A stretch of 37,006 nucleotides of DNA from Planctomycetota bacterium. Lineage in GTDB: Bacteria; Planctomycetota; UBA1135; GCA-002686595. The stretch lies in assembly GCA_004357655.1 (NCBI GenBank), contig SMVQ01000125.1, positions 1 through 37,006 on the forward strand, written 5' to 3'. Shown here piece after piece: positions 2-31,873 of this stretch; positions within the stretch are counted from its first letter, which is position 1, and every line of letters starts with the position of its first letter. The position numbers and the translations under genes were made by a program. The notes below the pieces were generated by a model. That model saw only the letters and a program-made list of their open reading frames with translations. It did not search any database and was not told where the DNA came from.

Positions 2-1087
2 TTCCTGTTCGCCTGGGTCGTGCTCTTCGTCATCTCGACGGGTGCGGCCGCCGTCGTGGCGGAGTTCTGCGCGCGCCAGATCGGGATTCTCGGCTGGGGC
101 GCGGGTGGTGCGCCCGAGTCCGCGACGCGCGCGATCGGCGCGGCGATCCTGGTCGGCGTGACCGCGCTCGCATTCACGGGCCTCAAGCGCGGGGCGATGT
201 TCCAGAACGTCTGCATGGTGCTGAAGCTCCTCGCGATCGGGGCGTTCGCCGTCGCCGGCGTCGCACTCTTCGACCCGGGCAGCGCCGTCCCTGCCGCCGC
301 CACGGCCGCCGACGCGGCTCCGAGCCTCGCCGAAGGCATGATGCGCGCGGCGCTTCCGGTGCTCTTCGCGTACGGCGGCTGGCAATACGTGACGTACATC
401 GCGCCGCACATCGTGAACCCGCAGCGGACGCTGCCACGGTCCATTCTCATCGGCGTGATCGGCGTGGTCGTCGTGTATCTCGCCGCGAACTTCGCCTACG
501 TCCACGTCCTGGGCATGGACGGCCTGGCGCACACCGAGGACTTCGCCGCCGAGATGGCGCGCCGGACGTTCGGGGACGTCGGCGGAACCGTGCTCGTGGC
601 CGCGATGGCGATCTCCTCGCTCGGCGTCTGCACGGCGATCCTCATCTCCACGCCCGGCGTCTACGTCGCCATGGCCAAGGAAGGGCTCTTCTTCGAGACC
701 TTCGGCCGCCTGCACCCGCGCACGGGCGCGCCCGTCGCCGCCCTCGCGCTCCAGCTCACCATCGCCCTCGGCTACTACGCCTGGGGCCGCGCCGGAACGC
801 TGGTGGACGCCGTCGTGTTCGCGGAGTGGATCTTCCACGCCCTCGTCGGCCTCGCCCTGCTGAAGCTCCGGCGCCTGCGCCCGGAGCTGCCGCGCCCGTT
901 CAAGAGCTGGGCGTACCCGCTCTTCCCCGCGCTCTACGTGCTGCTGGCGTGCGCGGTCGTCGTCGGCTCGCTCATCACCGCCGAACGGGACCGGACGCTC
1001 CTCGGCCTGTCCGTGCTCGCCGTCGGCCTCGCCGTGTACGCGCCGTGGCGGCGTGTGATGGCTCAGTACGTCCGGAACGAGTCCTGA
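2..1087 (+). CDS. Amino-acid permease, APC superfamily (5' end cut by the window)
   Basis: This is the last 361 codons of a multi-spanning inner-membrane transporter. The reading frame is already open at base 2, and the first residues visible (FLFAWVVLFVISTG) sit in what would be the second membrane helix of an APC permease, so roughly 60-90 N-terminal residues lie outside the window. The remaining protein is a run of hydrophobic helices, including the region around the conserved YxGWQ and LGVCTAI stretches and the cytoplasmic loop with AKEGLFFETFGRLHP, which matches the 'A.DG..P..F..vHp' loop typical of amino-acid/polyamine permeases. The substrate cannot be told. The stop codon lies 25 bases inside the convergent rodA gene, so the two genes share coding DNA on opposite strands. 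Family call is firm; specificity is unknown. Confidence 0.85.
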   Translation, partial: FLFAWVVLFVISTGAAAVVAEFCARQIGILGWGAGGAPESATRAIGAAILVGVTALAFTGLKRGAMFQNVCMVLKLLAIGAFAVAGVALFDPGSAVPAAATAADAAPSLAEGMMRAALPVLFAYGGWQYVTYIAPHIVNPQRTLPRSILIGVIGVVVVYLAANFAYVHVLGMDGLAHTEDFAAEMARRTFGDVGGTVLVAAMAISSLGVCTAILISTPGVYVAMAKEGLFFETFGRLHPRTGAPVAALALQLTIALGYYAWGRAGTLVDAVVFAEWIFHALVGLALLKLRRLRPELPRPFKSWAYPLFPALYVLLACAVVVGSLITAERDRTLLGLSVLAVGLAVYAPWRRVMAQYVRNES

Positions 1088-2253
1088 TCGAGGCTCGCCG
1101 TGTGGTGCGAGGCCAGGCCGAGCGCGAGGCCCAGGGCGAGGAACGTGACGAGCAGCGACGAGCCGCCCGTCGAGAAGAGCGGCAGCGTGAGCCCCGTCAT
1201 CGGCAGCAGTCCGAGATTGACGGCGGCGTTGATGAACACGTGCGCGGCGAAGTAGAGCGCGACACCGCCCACCACCAGGCGCGAGAAGCGGTCGCGCAGG
1301 CCGGCCGCGCTGGCCATGAGCAGGATCACGAGCAAGGTGTAGAGGAAGAGCAGCGCACCCGCGCCGATGAAGCCCGATTCCTCGGCGATCACGGCGAAGA
1401 TCGAGTCGCTGTCGCGCTCCGGCAGGTGGCCGGTCTCGTTCGCGATGCCCCGCCCGAGGCCGGTGCCCAGCCAGCCGCCGTTCCCGATCGCGGTCCGGGC
1501 GTGATAGACGTGGAAGCCGAGGCGGTTCCGCTCCTGGATCAGGTCCTCCGGCTGGTACGAGTCGACCCACGTGTCGACGCGCTTGAGTTGGTACTCCTTC
1601 ACCATCCCGGCCCGCACGCCGAGGTACCCGACGAACAGGCCGCAGGCGACGAGCATGAAGAGCGCCCGACCGCGCGCCCCCGCGAGGTACAGCATGCCCA
1701 GCGTGATAGGCACGATCGTGAGCGCCGTGCCGAGGTCCGGCTGGAGCACGACCATGCCCATGGGGACGAACGCGACGAACGCCGGCTTCATCCAGTCCTC
1801 GAGGTCCTTCAGCCGGCTCCGGTGCAGGATCTTCGCCAGCATCAGGATGACGCCGAGCTTGGCGAGCTCGGACGGCTGGAGGTCGAACATCGGCAGTTGG
1901 ATCCAACGCCTGGCGTTGTTGCGCTCGTCACCGATGAAGGGCACGAGGGCGAGCAGGACGAGGCAAGCGAAGTAGAGCACGTGCGCGTTGCGCCTCAGCC
2001 AGCCCGGCCGCACGAGCATGCCGACGAGGATGAGCGGCGAGGTGAGGAGGACCTTCTTCAGGTGCCCCGAGAAGTCGATGTCCCCCTCGTACTGGTTCGA
2101 CAGTGAACCGTCCATCGCGTTCAGGAAGAGCAGGCCGAACAGGAGCAGGCACCCGGCGATGATCAGGATGTGCCAGTCGACCTCGAACCAGCGTACGTGC
2201 CGCGCGGAGAGGACGCGACCCAGGCCGAACGGCCCCGTGCTGCGGGCGCTCAC
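1063..2253 (-). CDS. rodA: Rod-shape SEDS peptidoglycan glycosyltransferase RodA
   Basis: SEDS-family polymerase that extends glycan strands from lipid II during side-wall growth, working with the class B PBP encoded just upstream. The 396-residue protein has about ten hydrophobic helices. Recognisable family blocks are ARRWIQLPMFDLQPSELAKL (about 114-133), QPDLGTAL (171-178), HLPERDSDSIFAVIAEESG (276-294) with the conserved acidic residue at D283 in the position of the proposed catalytic Asp of E. coli RodA, and the C-terminal LLPMTGLTLPLFSTGGSSL. The start is GTG at 2253, whose bases overlap the TGA of mrdA (GTGA), so translation is probably coupled. It is the last gene of the mre operon and its 3' end overlaps the convergent permease gene by 25 bp. 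FtsW is the alternative name in the same family, but the operon context favours RodA. Confidence 0.95.
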   Translation of the reverse strand: MSARSTGPFGLGRVLSARHVRWFEVDWHILIIAGCLLLFGLLFLNAMDGSLSNQYEGDIDFSGHLKKVLLTSPLILVGMLVRPGWLRRNAHVLYFACLVLLALVPFIGDERNNARRWIQLPMFDLQPSELAKLGVILMLAKILHRSRLKDLEDWMKPAFVAFVPMGMVVLQPDLGTALTIVPITLGMLYLAGARGRALFMLVACGLFVGYLGVRAGMVKEYQLKRVDTWVDSYQPEDLIQERNRLGFHVYHARTAIGNGGWLGTGLGRGIANETGHLPERDSDSIFAVIAEESGFIGAGALLFLYTLLVILLMASAAGLRDRFSRLVVGGVALYFAAHVFINAAVNLGLLPMTGLTLPLFSTGGSSLLVTFLALGLALGLASHHTASLDQDSFRTY

Positions 2254-5200
2254 CGCCGAGCCTCCGGACTCCGGCTCGCGCGCTCGAGGAAGCGCTGCAC
2301 CGCGTCCGAGCGCAGGAACTGCGAAGCGAGGTAGACGGCGCCGTGGGACGAGGTCGTCGAAGTGTCGTGCACGTACACGACGACGATCGCCCGCGGTTCA
2401 TCCGACGGGAACCAGCCCGCGACCCAGGTGTGCTTGCGCATGCCGCGCTTCCACGCCCCCGCGTACGGGAGGAGCGGTTCGCTGGGGACGCGACCGACGC
2501 GATAGTCGGCGCTCCCCGTCTTGGCGGAGAGCTGGAACCCCAGTGTCTTCTCACCGAGTCCCTTGCCCGCGGCCGTCCCCTTGCGCACGACGTCCCGCAG
2601 TGCCTGCTGCACGAACGCGAGTCGCTGCGGCTCGAACGGGAGCTGCCGCGAGCGCACCGGCAGCTCGCGGCCGCCGACGGACATGACGAGGCGCAGCTCG
2701 GGCAACTGGCCCGTCGCGAGGCCCGCGTAGGCGCGCGCAACCTGCATCGGCGTGGCCTCCACGTCCGTGAGCCCGTTGCCGATCCGGTGGACATCCTCCG
2801 GCATGAGCCGGTCGGGGCTCCGCGACAGCTTGGTGCGGAGCTGCCAGTCCTCGGAGAGCCCCCTGGCGTCAGTTTCAAGGCAGCGGACGCCCGTCGGCTC
2901 GCCGAACCCGAACGTGTGCGCCATCTCGAGGAGCTTGGAGCCCGAGGGGTACTGTTCGGCCAGCGCCGCGAAGTAGGCGTTGCAGGAGTGCTGGAGCGCG
3001 TCGTGCAGGCCGAGCTTGCCGTGCCCCCACTCGTTCCAGCAGTGCAGCTTCGCGTAGCCCGCGCCGCCGCCGTCGAGACTCGCGCAATCGAACCGCGTAT
3101 CGACGTCGAAGTCGAGGAACTGCATGGCCCAGAGCGCCACGAAGGGCTTGAACACGGAGCCCGGTGGCTGCGCCCATGGTCGGCGCAGCGTGCGTTCGAT
3201 CGCAAAAGCGCGCTCGCCGTCCTGACCCGGGCCCGGCTCGCCCGGGCGATTCGGCGCGGACGCGGCGGCGAGCACATCGCCGTCCGGTGTGATCATGACG
3301 ATCGCGCCCACGGAATGGTCGCGCCAGACGAGGTCCGGCTTGCGATCGTCCGCGGGGACGGGCGCCGGGTGTTCGAGCACCGTCTGCGCCGCGCGCTGCA
3401 GCTCCAGGTCGATCGTGAGCACGAGATCCTCGCCGTCCCGCACCGCCAGGTGGAGCGGATTCCGCCCCCCCGCCCCGCGGTCCTGCAAGCCCTGCGTCTC
3501 GTGGTAGCCGTTCGTACCCGAGAGGAACGCGTCGAAATAGCCCTCGAGCCCTGTCCCACCCTGGCGTTCGCCGGCGCGGACGAGGCTCGTCGCGAGGTGG
3601 GCGATCACGGCTTGGTCGGACTCCGATCGTTCGCGCTTCCGGCGCAGCTCGCCGAGCTGCTCCTCCTGCGGACGCTGCCGGAAGAGGTCCGCGAGGAGTG
3701 GCGTGCGCACCCGCCCGACCAGTTGCTCCGCGATCGGACGCGGCTCGCGCTCCTCGTCGAACGCGACGGGCACGCGGCGCGTCGTGCTCCTCACGACCAT
3801 TCCGGCGTAGCGGTCCGGATAGCGCGTCACGAGCTGCACGAGATCGTAGTCGGGATTCTTGATGAGCCGCAGTGGGCGAGAGCTCCGGTCGCGGACGACG
3901 TAACGGTGCTCGTCGATCGCGCTCTCGCGGCGCTCCTCGGTGAAGACGAGTCGCCCGCCCACCTCCGCTTCCCAGCGCTCGAGCACGGTCTCGATACAGT
4001 CCTGGAGTCGGACGTTCCAGTCGACGAGGACGGGCGCAATGAGCTCCCTGTCCGCGGGCTGAGGTGCCTGGCGCCGGTTCCGCGCGATCTCCACGAGCTC
4101 CGACGCGACTTCGGCGATGGTCCGGGCTCCGAACCGCGACCCGTCGATCGCTCCGAGCGCCGCGGCGACGAGCGCGCTCCCTGCGAGCGGCCGCTCCGAG
4201 CGCACGCGTCGACGGAGTTCATCGGCTTGGAACGGGAGCGCCGCGCGGCCCACGTCTTCGTCAGGGGGCGATGTGCCCGCGAAGACACCTTCGAGCTCGG
4301 ACAGGACGACGAGGTGTTCCACGTCCAACCAGCGCCCACCCCCGCCGGCCAGGAGGCCACGGCGCTCCTCGGACACCGCGAAGAACGAAGCGAGCGCGTC
4401 GAGCACACGCGAACCCGGCTCGCTCGATCCGATCTTCGAGTGCACGGCCGCGTGCGTGTACAGAACGCCCCCGGCGACCCGGTCCCACATCCTCCCGCGC
4501 GAGTCGACCCAGTCTTCCAGCCGCTCGGGGCTCCAGTGCAGCGCGCCGCGGAGCCAGTCCACATCGATCCGTGCGAGGTTCGCGCGCGACAAGCGCCACG
4601 CGTCGAAGCCCGCGGCGGTGGCGAAGAGCTCGTCCGCCACGCCATTCTGAACGTCGCGCCGCGCGCCCTCGAGCTCTTCGAGGAGGTGCTCGACCTCGCC
4701 ACCGTACCCGTCCGCGCCCCACAGCCCCGCGAACTTCGCGAGATGGCCGCGCGCCGCGCGCACGCGCCGGTCGAGCTCGCCGTAGACGACTCCGGGCGCG
4801 ACGTCGCGCCCCCGCGCAACGAGCTCGGCGAACGGGAGCTCGTACTCCGGCCGCCCGCGCAACTTCTGGATCGAGCGGCGGATGTCCCGGCTCTCGGAGT
4901 CGTTCCGATTCAGATCGAGGAGGGCGCGAATGTAGAACACGAGGTCGCCGCGGCGGCTGGAGCGCCATTCCGCATGGGGGTCCGTCGTGGCTGGAATGGT
5001 GAACGCCTGCGTCTCGAGCGCGCGACCACGCCCGAAATCGTCGAGTGCCTGGGGCGAGAGGCGGACGAGCTCCATCGCCCACGCGGGCAGGTGCTCGTAC
5101 GCATCGCGCAGGTCGACCGGCTCGCTGAATAGCACCGAGCGCGCCTCCGCCACCTGGCCGAGCGGGTGGCCCCGGCGAAAATTGCGCCAGATGAAGTCGA

Positions 5201-5411
5201 GCTCGTACACGTCCTCGTCGTGCACGAGCAAGCGCCCTTCGCGGTCGTAGATGGAGCCCCGCCGGTAGGGATCGAACGTCCACGTCCGCACGAGGTTCGC
5301 AGCCTCGCGCGCCCAGGTCTCGTGCTCCAGGATCTGAACCTGGAACATCCGCGCGAGCAGGAGCGCGAGCCCAAGCGCGCTGGCCACCATGAGCGGAGCG
5401 AACCGGCGCAT
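2250..5411 (-). CDS. mrdA: Penicillin-binding protein 2 (class B transpeptidase) with a very large N-terminal insertion
   Basis: D,D-transpeptidase that cross-links new peptidoglycan in the elongasome together with RodA. The start chosen is ATG at 5411, two bases after the mreD stop; it gives a 1053-residue protein with one membrane anchor at 8-25. The pedestal begins normally (SIYDREGRLL, 53-62). The transpeptidase domain has all three catalytic motifs: S752-VFK, S809-C-N and K964-TG. In E. coli PBP2 (about 630 residues) the catalytic serine is at 330, so roughly 420 residues are extra here. They lie mainly between residues 85 and 515, are rich in Arg, Glu, Leu and Ala, look mostly helical, and match no family I recognise. 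The pedestal resumes around VTRYPDRYAG (528-537). There is no frameshift or stop in the insertion, and codon use resembles that of the rest of the gene. Confidence 0.92.
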   Translation of the reverse strand: MRRFAPLMVASALGLALLLARMFQVQILEHETWAREAANLVRTWTFDPYRRGSIYDREGRLLVHDEDVYELDFIWRNFRRGHPLGQVAEARSVLFSEPVDLRDAYEHLPAWAMELVRLSPQALDDFGRGRALETQAFTIPATTDPHAEWRSSRRGDLVFYIRALLDLNRNDSESRDIRRSIQKLRGRPEYELPFAELVARGRDVAPGVVYGELDRRVRAARGHLAKFAGLWGADGYGGEVEHLLEELEGARRDVQNGVADELFATAAGFDAWRLSRANLARIDVDWLRGALHWSPERLEDWVDSRGRMWDRVAGGVLYTHAAVHSKIGSSEPGSRVLDALASFFAVSEERRGLLAGGGGRWLDVEHLVVLSELEGVFAGTSPPDEDVGRAALPFQADELRRRVRSERPLAGSALVAAALGAIDGSRFGARTIAEVASELVEIARNRRQAPQPADRELIAPVLVDWNVRLQDCIETVLERWEAEVGGRLVFTEERRESAIDEHRYVVRDRSSRPLRLIKNPDYDLVQLVTRYPDRYAGMVVRSTTRRVPVAFDEEREPRPIAEQLVGRVRTPLLADLFRQRPQEEQLGELRRKRERSESDQAVIAHLATSLVRAGERQGGTGLEGYFDAFLSGTNGYHETQGLQDRGAGGRNPLHLAVRDGEDLVLTIDLELQRAAQTVLEHPAPVPADDRKPDLVWRDHSVGAIVMITPDGDVLAAASAPNRPGEPGPGQDGERAFAIERTLRRPWAQPPGSVFKPFVALWAMQFLDFDVDTRFDCASLDGGGAGYAKLHCWNEWGHGKLGLHDALQHSCNAYFAALAEQYPSGSKLLEMAHTFGFGEPTGVRCLETDARGLSEDWQLRTKLSRSPDRLMPEDVHRIGNGLTDVEATPMQVARAYAGLATGQLPELRLVMSVGGRELPVRSRQLPFEPQRLAFVQQALRDVVRKGTAAGKGLGEKTLGFQLSAKTGSADYRVGRVPSEPLLPYAGAWKRGMRKHTWVAGWFPSDEPRAIVVVYVHDTSTTSSHGAVYLASQFLRSDAVQRFLERASRSPEARR

Positions 5412-5413
5412 GG

Positions 5414-5932
5414 TCACCACCTGCGGGTCCTCAGCGGCGTGAGGCCCGGGAGGTGAGCGAAGACCGGTCCGAACGCGAGGGCGAAGAGCGCGGTCGAGAG
5501 CGCGATGCGCCACAGACCGAGGACCTCCGAGAGCAGCGCCACCGGTTCACCGCCGTCGCGCACGTGCCGGACGAGGAGCAGCCAGGCCGGGAACAGCCAG
5601 CCGGCGAAGCCTGCGACCACGGTCCGCAGGAGCGCGCCGTTCACCTCGAGCGCCGAGCGCATCGCGTTCACGAGGAGCGCCGTGCAGAGGAACGCGGCGA
5701 AGATCGCCGTGGGCGGTTCGATGGTGTAGGCGACACGGGAGAGGGCCAGGAGGAGCGCCGCGCCGGGCACGTCCTGCTTCTGGAAGCGGCCCGCGCAGGC
5801 GATCAGGAGCACGAGTCCGCCATCGGGCAGCCACGCGGCCAGGGGCGTCTGCGCCACGAGAATGCCCTGCGCCGCAACGATCCAACTGCTCCACACGCCG
5901 AGCATCAGCCAACTGATCCAGCGCTTCCTCAT
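5414..5932 (-). CDS. mreD: Rod-shape-determining membrane protein MreD
   Basis: Small polytopic inner-membrane protein of the elongasome, assigned by position between mreC and mrdA and by its profile: 172 residues with about five hydrophobic segments, starting MRKRWISWLMLGVWSSWIVA and including LPDGGLVLLIACAGRF. MreD sequences are poorly conserved, so the operon context carries most of the weight. The frame stays open upstream of this point, but that extension is an arginine-rich shadow of mreC. The ATG at 5932 gives a normal MreD N-terminus and overlaps the mreC stop codon (ATGA), implying translational coupling. Confidence 0.85.
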   Translation of the reverse strand: MRKRWISWLMLGVWSSWIVAAQGILVAQTPLAAWLPDGGLVLLIACAGRFQKQDVPGAALLLALSRVAYTIEPPTAIFAAFLCTALLVNAMRSALEVNGALLRTVVAGFAGWLFPAWLLLVRHVRDGGEPVALLSEVLGLWRIALSTALFALAFGPVFAHLPGLTPLRTRRW

Positions 5933-7359
5933 GGCACGGGCTCGCCCCCGCGCGCGACGCGTACCCGCAGGCTCCCGGGTTCCTGCGCGCCTTGCGGCTG
6001 GTGGATGCGGATGATGTGCGGCCCCGGCCCGCACGGTAGCTCTGCGTCGCCGACGAGCAGGCCGCGCGGGACGCCGGCCTCGCCCGAGCCCGTCCACACG
6101 CTCGCGCGGACGCAGCCCTCGCCCGGGATCTCGATCGTCGCGGGCCACTCGAACCGGAGCGCGCCTTCCGCGTCACGGCCGCCGCCCGTGATCCGACCCA
6201 TGACGTGCGGGGACTCGCCGCCGTCCGGCGTCCGGATCATCGCCAGCGCGGCGAAGGCGAGACCCGGATCCCCGACCATGCGCACGTCCGAGATCGTGAG
6301 GCCCGCGCGCTCGACGCGCCCGACGAACCGCGCGCCCGAGGCGACCGCGGCCCCACGCTCGACCCCGTGGATCCGGCCGAGCGATAGCTTGCGCCCCTCG
6401 CGCCACCACGAGGGCTCCGAGCGTAGGAAGAACCGCGCGCGGCGCCAGCCATCGTCCTCCAGCATGCTCCCGCGACGCGCCGTGGCCCCGACCGGCCCGT
6501 CGCCCGGACACAGGACCAGGACCTGGTAGAGGCCCGTCTCGTAGTCGAGCCCGGGCCGCACACCGAGCACGTCCTTGCCGTCCTCCGCGACCCGCTCGAG
6601 CTCGCCCAGGAGGAACCCGTTCGCGAGGTATGTGAGGTCTTCCGCCAGCTCCTTCGAGTCGTTCACCACCACGCGGCCGCGCTCGATCCCCCTGCGCTCG
6701 GGGTTGTGGACGTCGAGGTACTCGCGCCCGCGAATGGGTGCGAGCCCACCCACCACGAGGTCGCTCAGCTCGACCGTCATCCCGTTCAGCTCGCCGCCCT
6801 CGACCGAGGCGCCGATCCGCGCCGTGGCGGAGGTGATCAGCTCCACCACCAGCTCGTCGCTCCCGGGCACGTCGCCCTGCCCGCCCCAGCGCTCCACCAC
6901 CACCCCGACGTAGGAGTCCGCGCTGACGACGGGGAAGCCGGGTTCCACCCCGGAGCGCCCGTCCACGCGGATCCGGATGCGATCCAGGTTGCCGCGCTCG
7001 CGACGGACGACCTCCGCGTGGCGCCAACCGACCCCGTCGAGGCGATGGGGATCCGCGGGCTGGGCCGAATCGAGGACCGCCCGCTCGACCTCCGCGTACC
7101 GCCGCAGGTCCGCCGCGCGCGCCCCCGCTTCACTCGGGTCGCTGGCGCGGGCCCGACGCCCCTGGAGCCAGCCGACCGGCGCCGAGAGCTCGGCGAAGAC
7201 CCGCGCGGGGGCGAGGAGCACGTCGAGCAAGCGGTCGACGGGCTCCACGGGTCTCAGCGAGAGCACGGCGAGCGCGAGGCAGAGGACCAGGTAGAGCGTG
7301 CGCGACCGGGAGAAGCCCAAGGCGATCCTTCGAGACGAATAGAATCGGACGAAGGGCAC
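5929..7359 (-). CDS. mreC: Rod-shape-determining protein MreC, elongated form with a probable second beta-domain
   Basis: Periplasmic scaffold that links MreB/MreD to PBP2 and activates it. The 476-residue protein has a short cytoplasmic N-terminus, one membrane helix (about 20-36), a charged linker/helix (60-110), and then the MreC beta-barrel region: RIRVDGRSGVEPGFPVV, SYVGVVVERW, and later NGFLLGELERV near residue 250. E. coli MreC has 367 residues. The extra C-terminal part (about 320-455) again contains a 'GVERGAAV..G.RFVGRVERAG' pattern like the core domain, so it may be an internal duplication. The start is GTG at 7359; it lacks a clear Shine-Dalgarno sequence. A good one (AGGGGAAGG) instead precedes an ATG at 7381 in another frame that runs off-family after a few residues. 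The gene is separated from mreB by the 89-nt inverted repeat. Confidence 0.88.
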   Translation of the reverse strand: MPFVRFYSSRRIALGFSRSRTLYLVLCLALAVLSLRPVEPVDRLLDVLLAPARVFAELSAPVGWLQGRRARASDPSEAGARAADLRRYAEVERAVLDSAQPADPHRLDGVGWRHAEVVRRERGNLDRIRIRVDGRSGVEPGFPVVSADSYVGVVVERWGGQGDVPGSDELVVELITSATARIGASVEGGELNGMTVELSDLVVGGLAPIRGREYLDVHNPERRGIERGRVVVNDSKELAEDLTYLANGFLLGELERVAEDGKDVLGVRPGLDYETGLYQVLVLCPGDGPVGATARRGSMLEDDGWRRARFFLRSEPSWWREGRKLSLGRIHGVERGAAVASGARFVGRVERAGLTISDVRMVGDPGLAFAALAMIRTPDGGESPHVMGRITGGGRDAEGALRFEWPATIEIPGEGCVRASVWTGSGEAGVPRGLLVGDAELPCGPGPHIIRIHQPQGAQEPGSLRVRVARGGEPVP

Positions 7360-7423: not shown

Positions 7424-7512
7424 TAGTACGGAGGCGGGACAAAATCAGCCGCCACTCCCGGCCGCCTCCGGCGGCCGGGAGTGGCGGCGGATTTTGTCCC
7501 GCCTCCGTACTA
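7424..7512. repeat. 89-nt near-perfect inverted repeat between mreB and mreC
   Basis: Two 43-base arms (7424-7466 and 7470-7512) are reverse complements of each other with a single mismatch (A7447 opposite G7489) and a three-base loop (TCC, 7467-7469). The right arm ends exactly on the mreB stop codon: its outermost three bases, read on the minus strand, are the TAG. The flanks resemble each other further out (CGAGG-AC and CGAGGGACGAT before TAGTACGG), so the symmetry extends beyond the perfect arms with a small bulge. No run of U follows the stem in the direction of the operon, and the stem is far longer than an intrinsic terminator needs. It could be a REP/MITE-like element, an RNA processing or stability site that sets the mreB:mreCD ratio, or both. 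No second copy was noticed in this window. Confidence 0.95.
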
Positions 7513-8571
7513 GTCCTCGTCGGTCCCCAGCACGCTGGCGAAGATGTCGAGCTTCTCGAGGAAGATGCCCGTCCCGCGCGCGACGGCGGTCAGGGGGTCG
7601 TCGACGACGCGCGCGTGCACGCCCAGGTGGTCGCTGATGCCCTCGGCGATGCCGTACAGGAGGCTGCCGCCGCCCACGAGGGTGAGGCCCGCGTCGAAGA
7701 GGTCGGCCGAGATCTCGGGCGGAGCCTCCTCGAGGATGCCGCGGATCGCCTCGCAGATCTGAGTCACGGGCACGGAGAGCGCCTCGCGAATCTCGATCGA
7801 GGTCACGGTCGTGCAACGCGGCAAGCCGTTGATCGAGTCGCGGCCCTTCACCTCCATCGAGAGCTCCTGCTCCATGGGCCAGGCGGACCCGACCGTCAGC
7901 TTGACGCGCTCCGCCGTCAGCTCACCGATCAGGAGGTTGTGGTGCCGCCGAAGGTGGCTGATGATGGCCTCGTCCATCTCGTCGCCCGCGATCCGGAGCG
8001 ACGTGGAGACGACCGAGCCCGCGAGCGAGAGCACCGCGATCTCGGTCGTGCCGCCGCCGATGTCGACCACCATCGAGCCGCGCGCTTCCGTGACGGGCAT
8101 GTCGCAGCCGATGCCGGCGGCCATGGGTTCGTCGATCAGGTAGACGCGGCGTGCCCCAGCCCGTTCGGCCGAGTGGATCACGGCCCGGCGCTCGACGGGG
8201 GTGATCCCCACCGGCACGGCGATGACGACCTGCGGCTTCACCCATTGGCGTCCCTCGTGCACCTTCGCGATGAAGTAGCGCAGCATCTTCTCCGTCACGT
8301 CGAAGTCGGCGATCACACCATGTTTCAGAGGACGGATGGCCTCGATCGAGCCGGGCGTCTTGCCCAGCATGGCCTTCGCCGTGTTTCCGACCGCCATGCC
8401 GTCGAGCAGCACTTCGTTCGTGCCCTTCTTCACGGCCACGACACTGGGTTCGTTCAGGATGATGCCCCGGCCTCGCACGCAGACGAGCGTGTTCGCGGTC
8501 CCGAGATCGATGCCCATGTCGACGGAGAGGTGCCCAAAGGCCCATTCCATCGGCTTGAAGAGGCTTACCAT
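7510..8571 (-). CDS. mreB: Rod-shape-determining actin homologue MreB
   Basis: Actin-like ATPase that forms membrane-bound filaments and directs side-wall synthesis. The 353-residue protein has the full nucleotide-binding signature: phosphate-1 MGIDLGTANTLV (19-30), the catalytic glutamate in LIDEPMAAGIG (E148), phosphate-2 VVDIGGGTTEIAV (168-180) and the adenosine motif LVGGGSLLYG (298-307). The C-terminus DPLTAVARGTG is also typical. The N-terminus MVSLFKPMEWAFGHLSVDMG carries hydrophobic residues that may help it bind membrane. GGAG lies five bases before the ATG. It is the first gene of the operon mreB-mreC-mreD-mrdA-rodA; its stop codon is built into the adjacent inverted repeat. Confidence 0.97.
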   Translation of the reverse strand: MVSLFKPMEWAFGHLSVDMGIDLGTANTLVCVRGRGIILNEPSVVAVKKGTNEVLLDGMAVGNTAKAMLGKTPGSIEAIRPLKHGVIADFDVTEKMLRYFIAKVHEGRQWVKPQVVIAVPVGITPVERRAVIHSAERAGARRVYLIDEPMAAGIGCDMPVTEARGSMVVDIGGGTTEIAVLSLAGSVVSTSLRIAGDEMDEAIISHLRRHHNLLIGELTAERVKLTVGSAWPMEQELSMEVKGRDSINGLPRCTTVTSIEIREALSVPVTQICEAIRGILEEAPPEISADLFDAGLTLVGGGSLLYGIAEGISDHLGVHARVVDDPLTAVARGTGIFLEKLDIFASVLGTDED

Positions 8572-29797: not shown

Positions 29798-31873
29798 CTA
29801 CTCGTCCGTGTCCGTGTCCGCGTCTGTGTCCGTGTCCGCGTCTGTGTCCGCGTCCTCGTTCTCTTCATCCCAGGAACGGAGGTGCAGGGCGTACTTCGTG
29901 CGGACGAAGTCGCTCGTAGCGAGGAAGCAGTTGTCCTCGAACTCGGTGGTCGCCTCGCGCACAGCCTGCTGGCGCAGGGCGTCGAGCTGGCGCGGGTCGA
30001 GCTTGGACATGTCCGCCGTGCGCGTGCCCGCGTACCGGACCAGGAAAGCATGCGCGCCCTGCACGTCCTTCTCGGCCGCTGACACCTGGCCGTCTTCCAA
30101 CTCGAAGAGGACGGCGGTCACGCGGATGAACAGATCGCCGGGCTTCGCATCGATGATGTCGCCCTCGGGCAGCTCGTAGCGTTCGAGGTACGGGCGCGCG
30201 ATCACTTCGAAGCCCGCCTCCGCCGCCTTCGCCGCAAAAGTCGCCTCGTCGACGATCGGCAGGTACTCGTCGTCGCCGGTCGGCGGCTCGCCGAACGTGG
30301 CGCGCAAGGCCTCGAGTTGCTCCATGGCGATCACCGCCGCGTGCTCCTTGGCCCATTCCTCGCCCACGGCCTCGCGGATGTCCTCGAACGGCGGCTCCTG
30401 CCCCGGGACCTTCGCATCGAGGCGCGCGATCATGATGGCCGACTCCTCCACGACGACGCGCGAGAGCAGCGCGTCCTCGAGGCCGAAGGCGAGCTGTCCG
30501 GCGATGTGCCGGCCACCCCAGCCCTCGGCCTCCTCGAGCGCCGCGCGCGTCGAATCGGCCCCCGTGGCCACGAAGGTGAGTCCGAGCGCGGCGGCATCGG
30601 CGGCGAGATCGAGCTCCTCACCGGCAGTCTCGCGGGTCTTCATGTCCGCGAGCCACGCCCTGAACGCGGCGTAGATCGGCTCCTCGCGGAGACAATCCGC
30701 CTTCACCTCGTCGAACGACTGGAAGATGCGCTCCGACGCCGGCGCGGGCTCATCGTCCTCGCCGTCCTCGCCGTCCTCAACGTCCTCGCCGTCCTCAACG
30801 TCCTCGCCGTCCTCGCCGCCCTCAACGTCCTCGCCGTCCTCGCCATCCTCCTGCTCCTCCTCAGGGATGCGGAACCGCACGTTCGAGAACTGGTTGTAGT
30901 AGCCCTGAGCGCGGGCCTCGGCGGCCGCGTCCGCGTCCTCGAGCTCGACTTCGGTCAGGGTCGCCGGGTACCGCTCGAGGAGTGCCGTCGCGTCGAACGT
31001 CCCGTCGAGCGGCGCCCAGGCGATGCTCGCCTGCAACGTGTCGTCGGTGAAGTAGGTTCTCTGCCTGAAGTTCGGCAGCGCGTGGAACCACGCGGCGAGC
31101 TCCTCGTCGGCCGGAACGTCAGCGGCCGCCTCTTCCTCGTAGTCGGCCGCGTCGAGCTGGACGTACTGGAAGGCGTACTCCGGGTGCTGCTCCTCCCAGA
31201 GCTCCGTGACGCGGTTCGCGTCGGCGATCCCTACGGACGCCTGCACGAAACCCTTGTACTTGTCCACGAGCATGACGAGCCGCGCATCCTCCGCTGCCGC
31301 CTTCGCCGTCGTCCTGATGCTGCGCGCCCAGGCTGCCATCCGGTCGTCGCTCTCGAAGGTGGCCGCGAGGCGCGCGGACAGCTCGTCATCGGTGACCCGC
31401 ATCCCCGCCTTCTCCGCGAGGGCTTCGAACACGAAGACCATCGCGGTGTCCTCGTCGCTCACGCTCGCCCGCTGTCCCCCGGAGAGGGCTTCGCGCGGGA
31501 TGAAGATGCGGACGTCCCACATGCGGGAGAGCGCGCGCTTCTGCTCGAGCCACTCCAGTCTAGGAATCTCGATCCGCTCGTCCGTGTCCGGGTCCGTCCA
31601 GGACATCGCGACATCGATGCCACCGCCCCCTTTCATGCTCCCGACGACCGACTGGAAGAGCCCGCTGACGGTGAAGATCAGGAGCACGAAGATCAGCATC
31701 GACCAGACCATGAAGAACTGGAAGCGACTCTGGCCCTTGGGGACGATGATCAGATCGTCGTCGTGCTCGTGCTCGTGCTCGAGCTCCTCGGGTGTCTCCG
31801 CCTCGTGCGCGTGGTGTGCCTTGTGCGCTTGGTGTGCCTTGTGCTGCTGCTTGTGCTTGTGTTTCTTCGACAT
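29798..31873 (-). CDS. Membrane-anchored PpiD/SurA-like protein with histidine-rich tail and acidic repeats
   Basis: A 691-residue protein starting at ATG 31873. Residues 1-45 are cytoplasmic and very rich in His, Lys and Glu (16 His in the first 37 residues), followed by one membrane helix (52-73) and a long periplasmic part. Residues about 85-235 resemble the SurA/PpiD N-terminal helical region (a hydrophobic stretch leading into EKAGMRVTDDELSARL), and segments near 385-520 resemble the second half of such foldases. I see no clear parvulin catalytic core, so enzyme activity is doubtful. Residues 337-375 are a repeat of Glu-Asp-Gly units that splits the protein, and the last 21 residues are an Asp/Thr repeat. 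PpiD-like topology suggests help for proteins leaving the Sec translocon; this is inference. It follows scpB with a hairpin and a possible promoter in between. Confidence 0.65.
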   Translation of the reverse strand: MSKKHKHKQQHKAHQAHKAHHAHEAETPEELEHEHEHDDDLIIVPKGQSRFQFFMVWSMLIFVLLIFTVSGLFQSVVGSMKGGGGIDVAMSWTDPDTDERIEIPRLEWLEQKRALSRMWDVRIFIPREALSGGQRASVSDEDTAMVFVFEALAEKAGMRVTDDELSARLAATFESDDRMAAWARSIRTTAKAAAEDARLVMLVDKYKGFVQASVGIADANRVTELWEEQHPEYAFQYVQLDAADYEEEAAADVPADEELAAWFHALPNFRQRTYFTDDTLQASIAWAPLDGTFDATALLERYPATLTEVELEDADAAAEARAQGYYNQFSNVRFRIPEEEQEDGEDGEDVEGGEDGEDVEDGEDVEDGEDGEDDEPAPASERIFQSFDEVKADCLREEPIYAAFRAWLADMKTRETAGEELDLAADAAALGLTFVATGADSTRAALEEAEGWGGRHIAGQLAFGLEDALLSRVVVEESAIMIARLDAKVPGQEPPFEDIREAVGEEWAKEHAAVIAMEQLEALRATFGEPPTGDDEYLPIVDEATFAAKAAEAGFEVIARPYLERYELPEGDIIDAKPGDLFIRVTAVLFELEDGQVSAAEKDVQGAHAFLVRYAGTRTADMSKLDPRQLDALRQQAVREATTEFEDNCFLATSDFVRTKYALHLRSWDEENEDADTDADTDTDADTDTDE
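29801..29863. repeat. Hexanucleotide repeat encoding an Asp/Thr tail
   Basis: Degenerate tandem units of the form GTCCGT/GTCCGC/GTCTGT on the plus strand encode alternating Asp-Thr and Asp-Ala at the C-terminus of the foldase-like protein. The unit length keeps the frame, so copy number can change without breaking the gene. Confidence 0.7.
30749..30865. repeat. Tandem repeat encoding Glu-Asp-Gly units
   Basis: Repeated 9-base (and 18-base) units based on CCGTCCTCG, with CAACGTCCT variants, encode the acidic stretch around residues 337-375 of the foldase-like protein. The region is about 100 bases long and stays in frame. Confidence 0.7.

Follow-up and report, generated by a model that had tools for sequence, protein, structure and literature searches.

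The stretch analysed here, referred to as the window, is contig SMVQ01000125.1 (GCA_004357655.1) of a Planctomycetota bacterium, 37,006 nt long, and all coordinates are window positions. It belongs to a 4.45-Mb assembly in 357 contigs that is 77.8 percent complete, and no 16S rRNA was found in this incomplete assembly. On one strand it carries mreB, mreC, mreD, pbp2 and rodA in this order, with overlapping pbp2 and rodA genes (Table 1). The pbp2 gene encodes penicillin-binding protein 2 (PBP2) enlarged by about 400 residues in its pedestal head, and this insert is the subject of the present analysis. An earlier note on this DNA had described a single unbroken frame in a normal operon position, with the catalytic serine at residue 752 of 1053 and the three transpeptidase motifs intact, all of which was confirmed.

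The frame at 2250-5411 (-) runs uninterrupted from ATG and is translated into 1053 residues. The product is a class B penicillin-binding protein, with PF00905 above its cut-off, the motifs S752-V-F-K755, S809-C-N811 and K964-T-G966, and a pedestal domain following a single membrane anchor. The three motifs are invariant in a 60-row family alignment. PF03717 (PBP_dimer) is split into two stretches (31.7 bits vs. a cut-off of 24.4), the best piece covering residues 50-94. The whole predicted structure matches solved PBP2s in Foldseek (Escherichia coli 6g9p, E-value (E) 1.7e-20; Clostridioides difficile 7rcw, E 3.7e-20), and pbp2 is linked to rodA and mreBCD here as well as at the loci of the other family members. 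The gene encodes PBP2, the transpeptidase of the elongasome, in a planctomycete belonging to the Saltatorellus-clade family. With 221.4 bits it stays below the 455 bits required by the NCBIfam equivalog TIGR03423, as in most planctomycetes (just 19 of 147 genomes reach this cut-off), and it is therefore called a PBP2-type enzyme and not an equivalog.

Table 1. Features of the elongasome locus in the window (residue numbers refer to the encoded protein).
Feature	Position	Strand	Basis
pbp2, class B penicillin-binding protein, 1053 aa	2250..5411	-	Open reading frame and translation; PF00905, PF03717 split match; 59 full-length family orthologs
Membrane anchor helix, residues 5-28	5328..5399	-	AlphaFold2 helix 5-28; hydropathy maximum at residue 7
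Head motif FRRGHPLG, residues 78-85, in PBP2s of long/double-core-MreC families	5157..5180	-	Motif 17-18 residues after RGxIxDRxG
Block I, residues 97-269, helices common with order-level relatives	4605..5123	-	hhalign with f5, E 1e-8; pLDDT mostly >90
Block II, residues 270-500, helical, this family only	3912..4604	-	No match in 17 groups; 60/60 members; pN/pS 0.38
Head return, canonical, residues 501-548 (strand, helix, strand)	3768..3911	-	Strands 514-518 and 538-548 and helix 522-530 in model; profile alignment with short PBP2s resumes here
Transpeptidase domain, residues 703-1021	2349..3305	-	PF00905 E 1.4e-33; whole-model Foldseek to E. coli PBP2 6g9p E 1.7e-20
Predicted zinc site C776, C791, H797, C810	2982..3086	-	Spacing as in A. 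baumannii PBP2; 60/60 family members
rodA, SEDS glycosyltransferase partner, start overlapping pbp2 stop	1063..2253	-	PF01098 E 1.2e-83
mreD-position membrane protein	5414..5932	-	Position and conservation in family; no Pfam match
mreC, 476 aa, tandem barrel cores ~111-282 and ~305-466	5929..7359	-	PF04085 in both halves; hhalign N vs. C half
mreB	7510..8571	-	PF06723 E 6.5e-133

The insertion had been placed at residues 85-515 (3867-5159). Alignment with shorter PBP2s, together with the predicted secondary structure, bears out the extra length of about 400 residues but moves its limits to about 97-511. The RGxIxDRxG motif and the motif of the catalytic serine lie 701 residues apart in this protein, compared with 302-326 for the phylum's shortest PBP2s. 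A PBP2 match was obtained in 78 of the 81 genomes of the same family (40 of 42 genera), and 59 further full-length family PBP2s have lengths of 1005-1132 aa. In each of the 60 aligned rows, positions 68 and 515 are separated by 417-514 residues. The complete genomes Pla163 (CP036290) and Pla86 (CP036296), both members of the Saltatorellus clade, match the window PBP2 over its full length.

This conservation leaves practically no credence for an artefact or a fused gene, that is, a frameshift, a misassembly, an intein or a gene fusion. Nothing in the window speaks for it, and the only related observation is an in-frame TAG in one relative (L026) from a single weak assembly. Against it, the same insert occupies the same place in the 59 other members and in the complete genomes, which excludes misassembly, frameshift and fusion; it contains no known domain, and it is under purifying selection. 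The median ratio of nonsynonymous to synonymous differences (pN/pS) in close pairs is 0.23 for Block I and 0.38 for Block II, the two parts of the insert described below, and 0.19 for the transpeptidase domain, so that the insert evolves faster than the latter. Invariant residues are kept in the insert across the family.

No Pfam, NCBIfam or PHROG entry matches the region between the PBP_dimer piece and the transpeptidase domain, and no PDB sequence matches the insert significantly. The possibility of a membrane segment was rejected, since the insert shows no strongly hydrophobic stretch and its hydropathy maximum is 1.21, vs. 1.88 for the anchor. AlphaFold2, run on the family alignment, predicted the whole PBP2 with a mean predicted local distance difference test (pLDDT) of 92.5 and a predicted template modelling score (pTM) of 0.87, and residues 68-515 alone with values of 94.2 and 0.91, respectively. 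In the model the insert is nearly all helical, and its long helices span 206-231, 239-267 and 452-484. It sits in the pedestal head, leaving and re-entering it. Both the helical character and the pedestal location had been anticipated in the earlier note. The insert alone gave no match below E 0.37 against the PDB (Foldseek) and none below E 0.23 against viral models. Since the search covered solved structures, the absence of a known fold means none among these. The insert is thus of no known family by sequence or solved fold, and it is conserved and intact. Of the three findings named beforehand as fatal to a genuine insertion, none appeared: no assembly error or frameshift, no family or solved fold covering it, and no loss among close relatives, every full-length one of which keeps it.

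The insert consists of two layers of different distribution. Block I is related by profile comparison (hhalign) to the pedestals of other planctomycete families, with E 1e-8 for family f5, 9e-7 for f4 and weaker values of about 1e-4 for f7 and f27/f71. Block II, present in 60 of 60 aligned family members, was without a match when compared with the profiles of 17 other family groups (E 0.24 or higher), and it is not an internal repeat of Block I either (hhalign E 0.13). In a phylum-wide search of 294 genomes with the insert profile, full-length matches were confined to this family. On the transpeptidase tree f2 groups with this family with a Shimodaira-Hasegawa-like approximate likelihood ratio test (SH-aLRT) support of 97. 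Since this tree neighbour has only 456 residues from the RG motif to the serine motif, vs. 701 in this family, Block II was most simply gained on the stem of the family. The proposal of a lineage-specific module holds for Block II, while Block I, about half of the insert, is common with order-level relatives.

The neighbouring MreC, noted before as unusually long, does have 476 aa, vs. 268-337 aa in most other planctomycete families tested, but its length is explained by a core duplication predating Block II. PF04085 was found in both halves of the protein, and in the N halves of 23 of 32 family members. The two halves match each other (hhalign E 2.5e-7, 156 columns), and the N-half profile retrieved the solved MreC 2j5u with E 3.4e-5. 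To judge from these profiles, the extra length of MreC comes from a barrel core that was duplicated in tandem before Block II was gained. A model derived from planctomycete MreCs with one core matches twice in f1, f4, f8, f11, f27, f41 and f54; f2, f5, f6, f7 and f71 also have a long MreC, in which this model detects one core only, and they are probably double-core as well. The PBP2s of the long or double-core families, f2 excepted, carry a head motif F-x-x-x-[HSTNQ]-[APV]-x-[GA] 17-18 residues past RGxIxDRxG, of which R79 is invariant in the window's family. About 20 single-core families lack it, and f56 has a chance-like match, the chance rate being 6.6 percent in random windows. No published description of the insert or of a double-core MreC was found in the openly licensed literature.

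With regard to the other genes, the mreD-position protein is kept in the operon across the family, despite a review in which MreD is absent from all proteomes of the Planctomycetes-Verrucomicrobia-Chlamydiae (PVC) group (PMC5147048). A second pair of a transpeptidase and a shape, elongation, division and sporulation (SEDS) protein lies elsewhere in each family genome and would be FtsI-FtsW by inference. The window also contains short tandem arrays at 30754-30850 and 29803-29859, with units of 27 and 18 bases, which are probably low-complexity coding sequence.

A zinc site is predicted next to the active site of the enzyme. The residues C776, C791, H797 and C810 lie at positions +24, +39, +45 and +58 from the catalytic serine, C810 being the x of SxN. 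The spacing is the same as that of D350, D365, H371 and C384 from S326 in Acinetobacter baumannii PBP2 (PMC9974482), and all four putative ligands, with Cys in SxN, are found in every one of the 60 family members. Planctomycetota PBP2s widely carry SCN together with Cys and His upstream of it, and the predicted Cys-Cys-His-Cys site would extend zinc-binding PBPs beyond the described Firmicutes and proteobacteria.

In Planctomycetota, an enlarged PBP2 pedestal is a common feature, seen in many families. Outside this family the distance from the RG motif to the serine ranges from 302 to about 620 residues, and this family is therefore the extreme of a common trend. The upper value belongs to f17 (L168, L169), a separately enlarged PBP2 head whose SxN motif is SSN, without the zinc-site cysteine, and whose MreC is single-core. 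The FtsI-like enzyme of this genome (G000 contig C203, 8860-9636; L274) and of five family members is enlarged too, with 434-514 residues from anchor to serine vs. 262-280 in two other families. Kinship of the PBP2 insert with this FtsI insert was rejected, none being found, and so was kinship with the large heads of f17 or f30, where profile comparison gave none.

This trend is the basis for an explanation by envelope adaptation, in which the pedestals of planctomycete class B PBPs are enlarged for an unusual envelope and the insert serves to brace the transpeptidase domain, or to hold it in position, in a wide periplasm, with no specific docking. The many families with enlarged pedestals and the non-homologous enlargement of FtsI in the same family fit it. 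However, the insert lies inside the head and not between the membrane and the linker, and therefore it should not by itself lengthen the reach of the enzyme; moreover, its invariant residues exceed what a filler needs. Envelope adaptation is considered possible, though doubtful.

The location of the insert points to a role in activation. In Helicobacter pylori, the head is the MreC-binding subdomain of PBP2, and MreC enters between head and anchor, swinging the anchor open (PMC5626683); in E. coli, PBP2 opening by MreC has been proposed to activate RodA (PMC10257715). In the window's family, the pedestal head has gained about 400 residues, which make up a large helical module. Since this module leaves and re-enters the head, it would form a lateral outgrowth and not a stalk, in a position suited to altering the MreC-driven opening of head and anchor. 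Such a placement favours an added docking or regulatory surface that would keep PBP2-RodA in the Rod complex, and the insert may also set the timing of head opening. The insert is a real, conserved part of a variant of a known enzyme, for which a docking role is plausible, and we assign a probability of roughly 0.5 to its offering the Rod complex a surface for docking or regulation. Its likeliest partner would be the duplicated MreC.

Several observations weigh against this reading. Both f17 and f30 have large pedestals alongside a single-core MreC, and therefore head growth needs no double MreC. A broader cause is suggested by FtsI, which is enlarged in this family as well. Double-core MreC and the head motif arose as a single change on the tree (support 82), which makes them one observation and not replicated evidence. 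In addition, Block II co-varies in distance with MreC core 1 (partial 0.30) no more strongly than it does with the linker (0.27) or the transpeptidase domain (0.30) of PBP2 itself; this evidence is weak and not MreC-specific, and the partner is therefore named by inference.

The module could instead act within the enzyme, packing on the catalytic domain and controlling its opening, in the manner of the helical cluster of C. difficile PBP2. The high pTM of the whole model suggests a fixed domain placement. Among the best fold matches of this model is C. difficile PBP2, whose head also carries a helical insertion in the corresponding part (PMC9334274). In the insert-only search, however, C. difficile PBP2 is not among the listed hits, and no similar helical-cluster fold was seen. 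An intramolecular regulator is regarded as unlikely, and the reading as a Rod-complex surface for docking or regulation is preferred.

PBP2, RodA and MreC are seen as parts of a machine that is nearly universal, with an activation inferred from E. coli, H. pylori and Thermus. The wall-building machine of this family is physically different from the textbook one, with an enlarged PBP2 head and a duplicated-core MreC; the helical module of the head, about 400 residues long, is predicted with confidence and has no match among solved structures. The Saltatorellus clade is described as having 70 percent G+C, lacking FtsZ, changing shape, fusing, being able to switch between budding and binary fission and having an actin-like protein, saltatorellin (PMC11032199; PMC11481906). 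The activation surface, the pedestal head, is thus remodelled in a lineage reported to be shape-shifting and, without FtsZ, to switch its mode of division (PMC11032199), and adaptation of the Rod complex in FtsZ-less cells becomes a concrete question. That the helical module and the double-core MreC provide an extra coupling of cytoskeleton and wall, enabling FtsZ-less shape change and the budding/fission switch in this clade, is quite improbable. Since the complete genomes of Pla163 and Pla86 carry the insert, deletion, localisation and structural tests are conceivable.

Compared with known systems, the window PBP2 matches in overall fold the E. coli enzyme (6g9p); this enzyme and that of H. 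pylori (MrdA of the Rod complex) do not have the extra head residues. The window MreC has the barrel core of canonical MreC (PF04085; PDB 2j5u), but two of them in tandem in a single chain instead of one, most tested planctomycete families being single. Among the enlarged planctomycete PBP2s (f4-f8, f27, f71; f17, f30, f54), the pedestal is extended as here. Block I is found in f4 and f5 and more weakly in f7 and f27/f71; f17 and f30 have large heads of a sequence not detectably related to the insert, and none of these PBP2s has Block II, unlike this family. The nearest precedent is C. difficile PBP2 (PDB 7rcw; PMC9334274), which is likewise a very large PBP2 with a helical head insertion and a zinc site by the active site (predicted in the window protein). 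Its insertion has about 130 residues in five helices, vs. about 400 residues here, and its central helical cluster contacts all three parts of the enzyme (PMC9334274). C. difficile PBP2 has in addition a coiled-coil between transpeptidase strands 3 and 4, whereas the corresponding strands of the window PBP2, 962-976 and 987-1001, are joined in the model by about 10 residues, with no coiled-coil.
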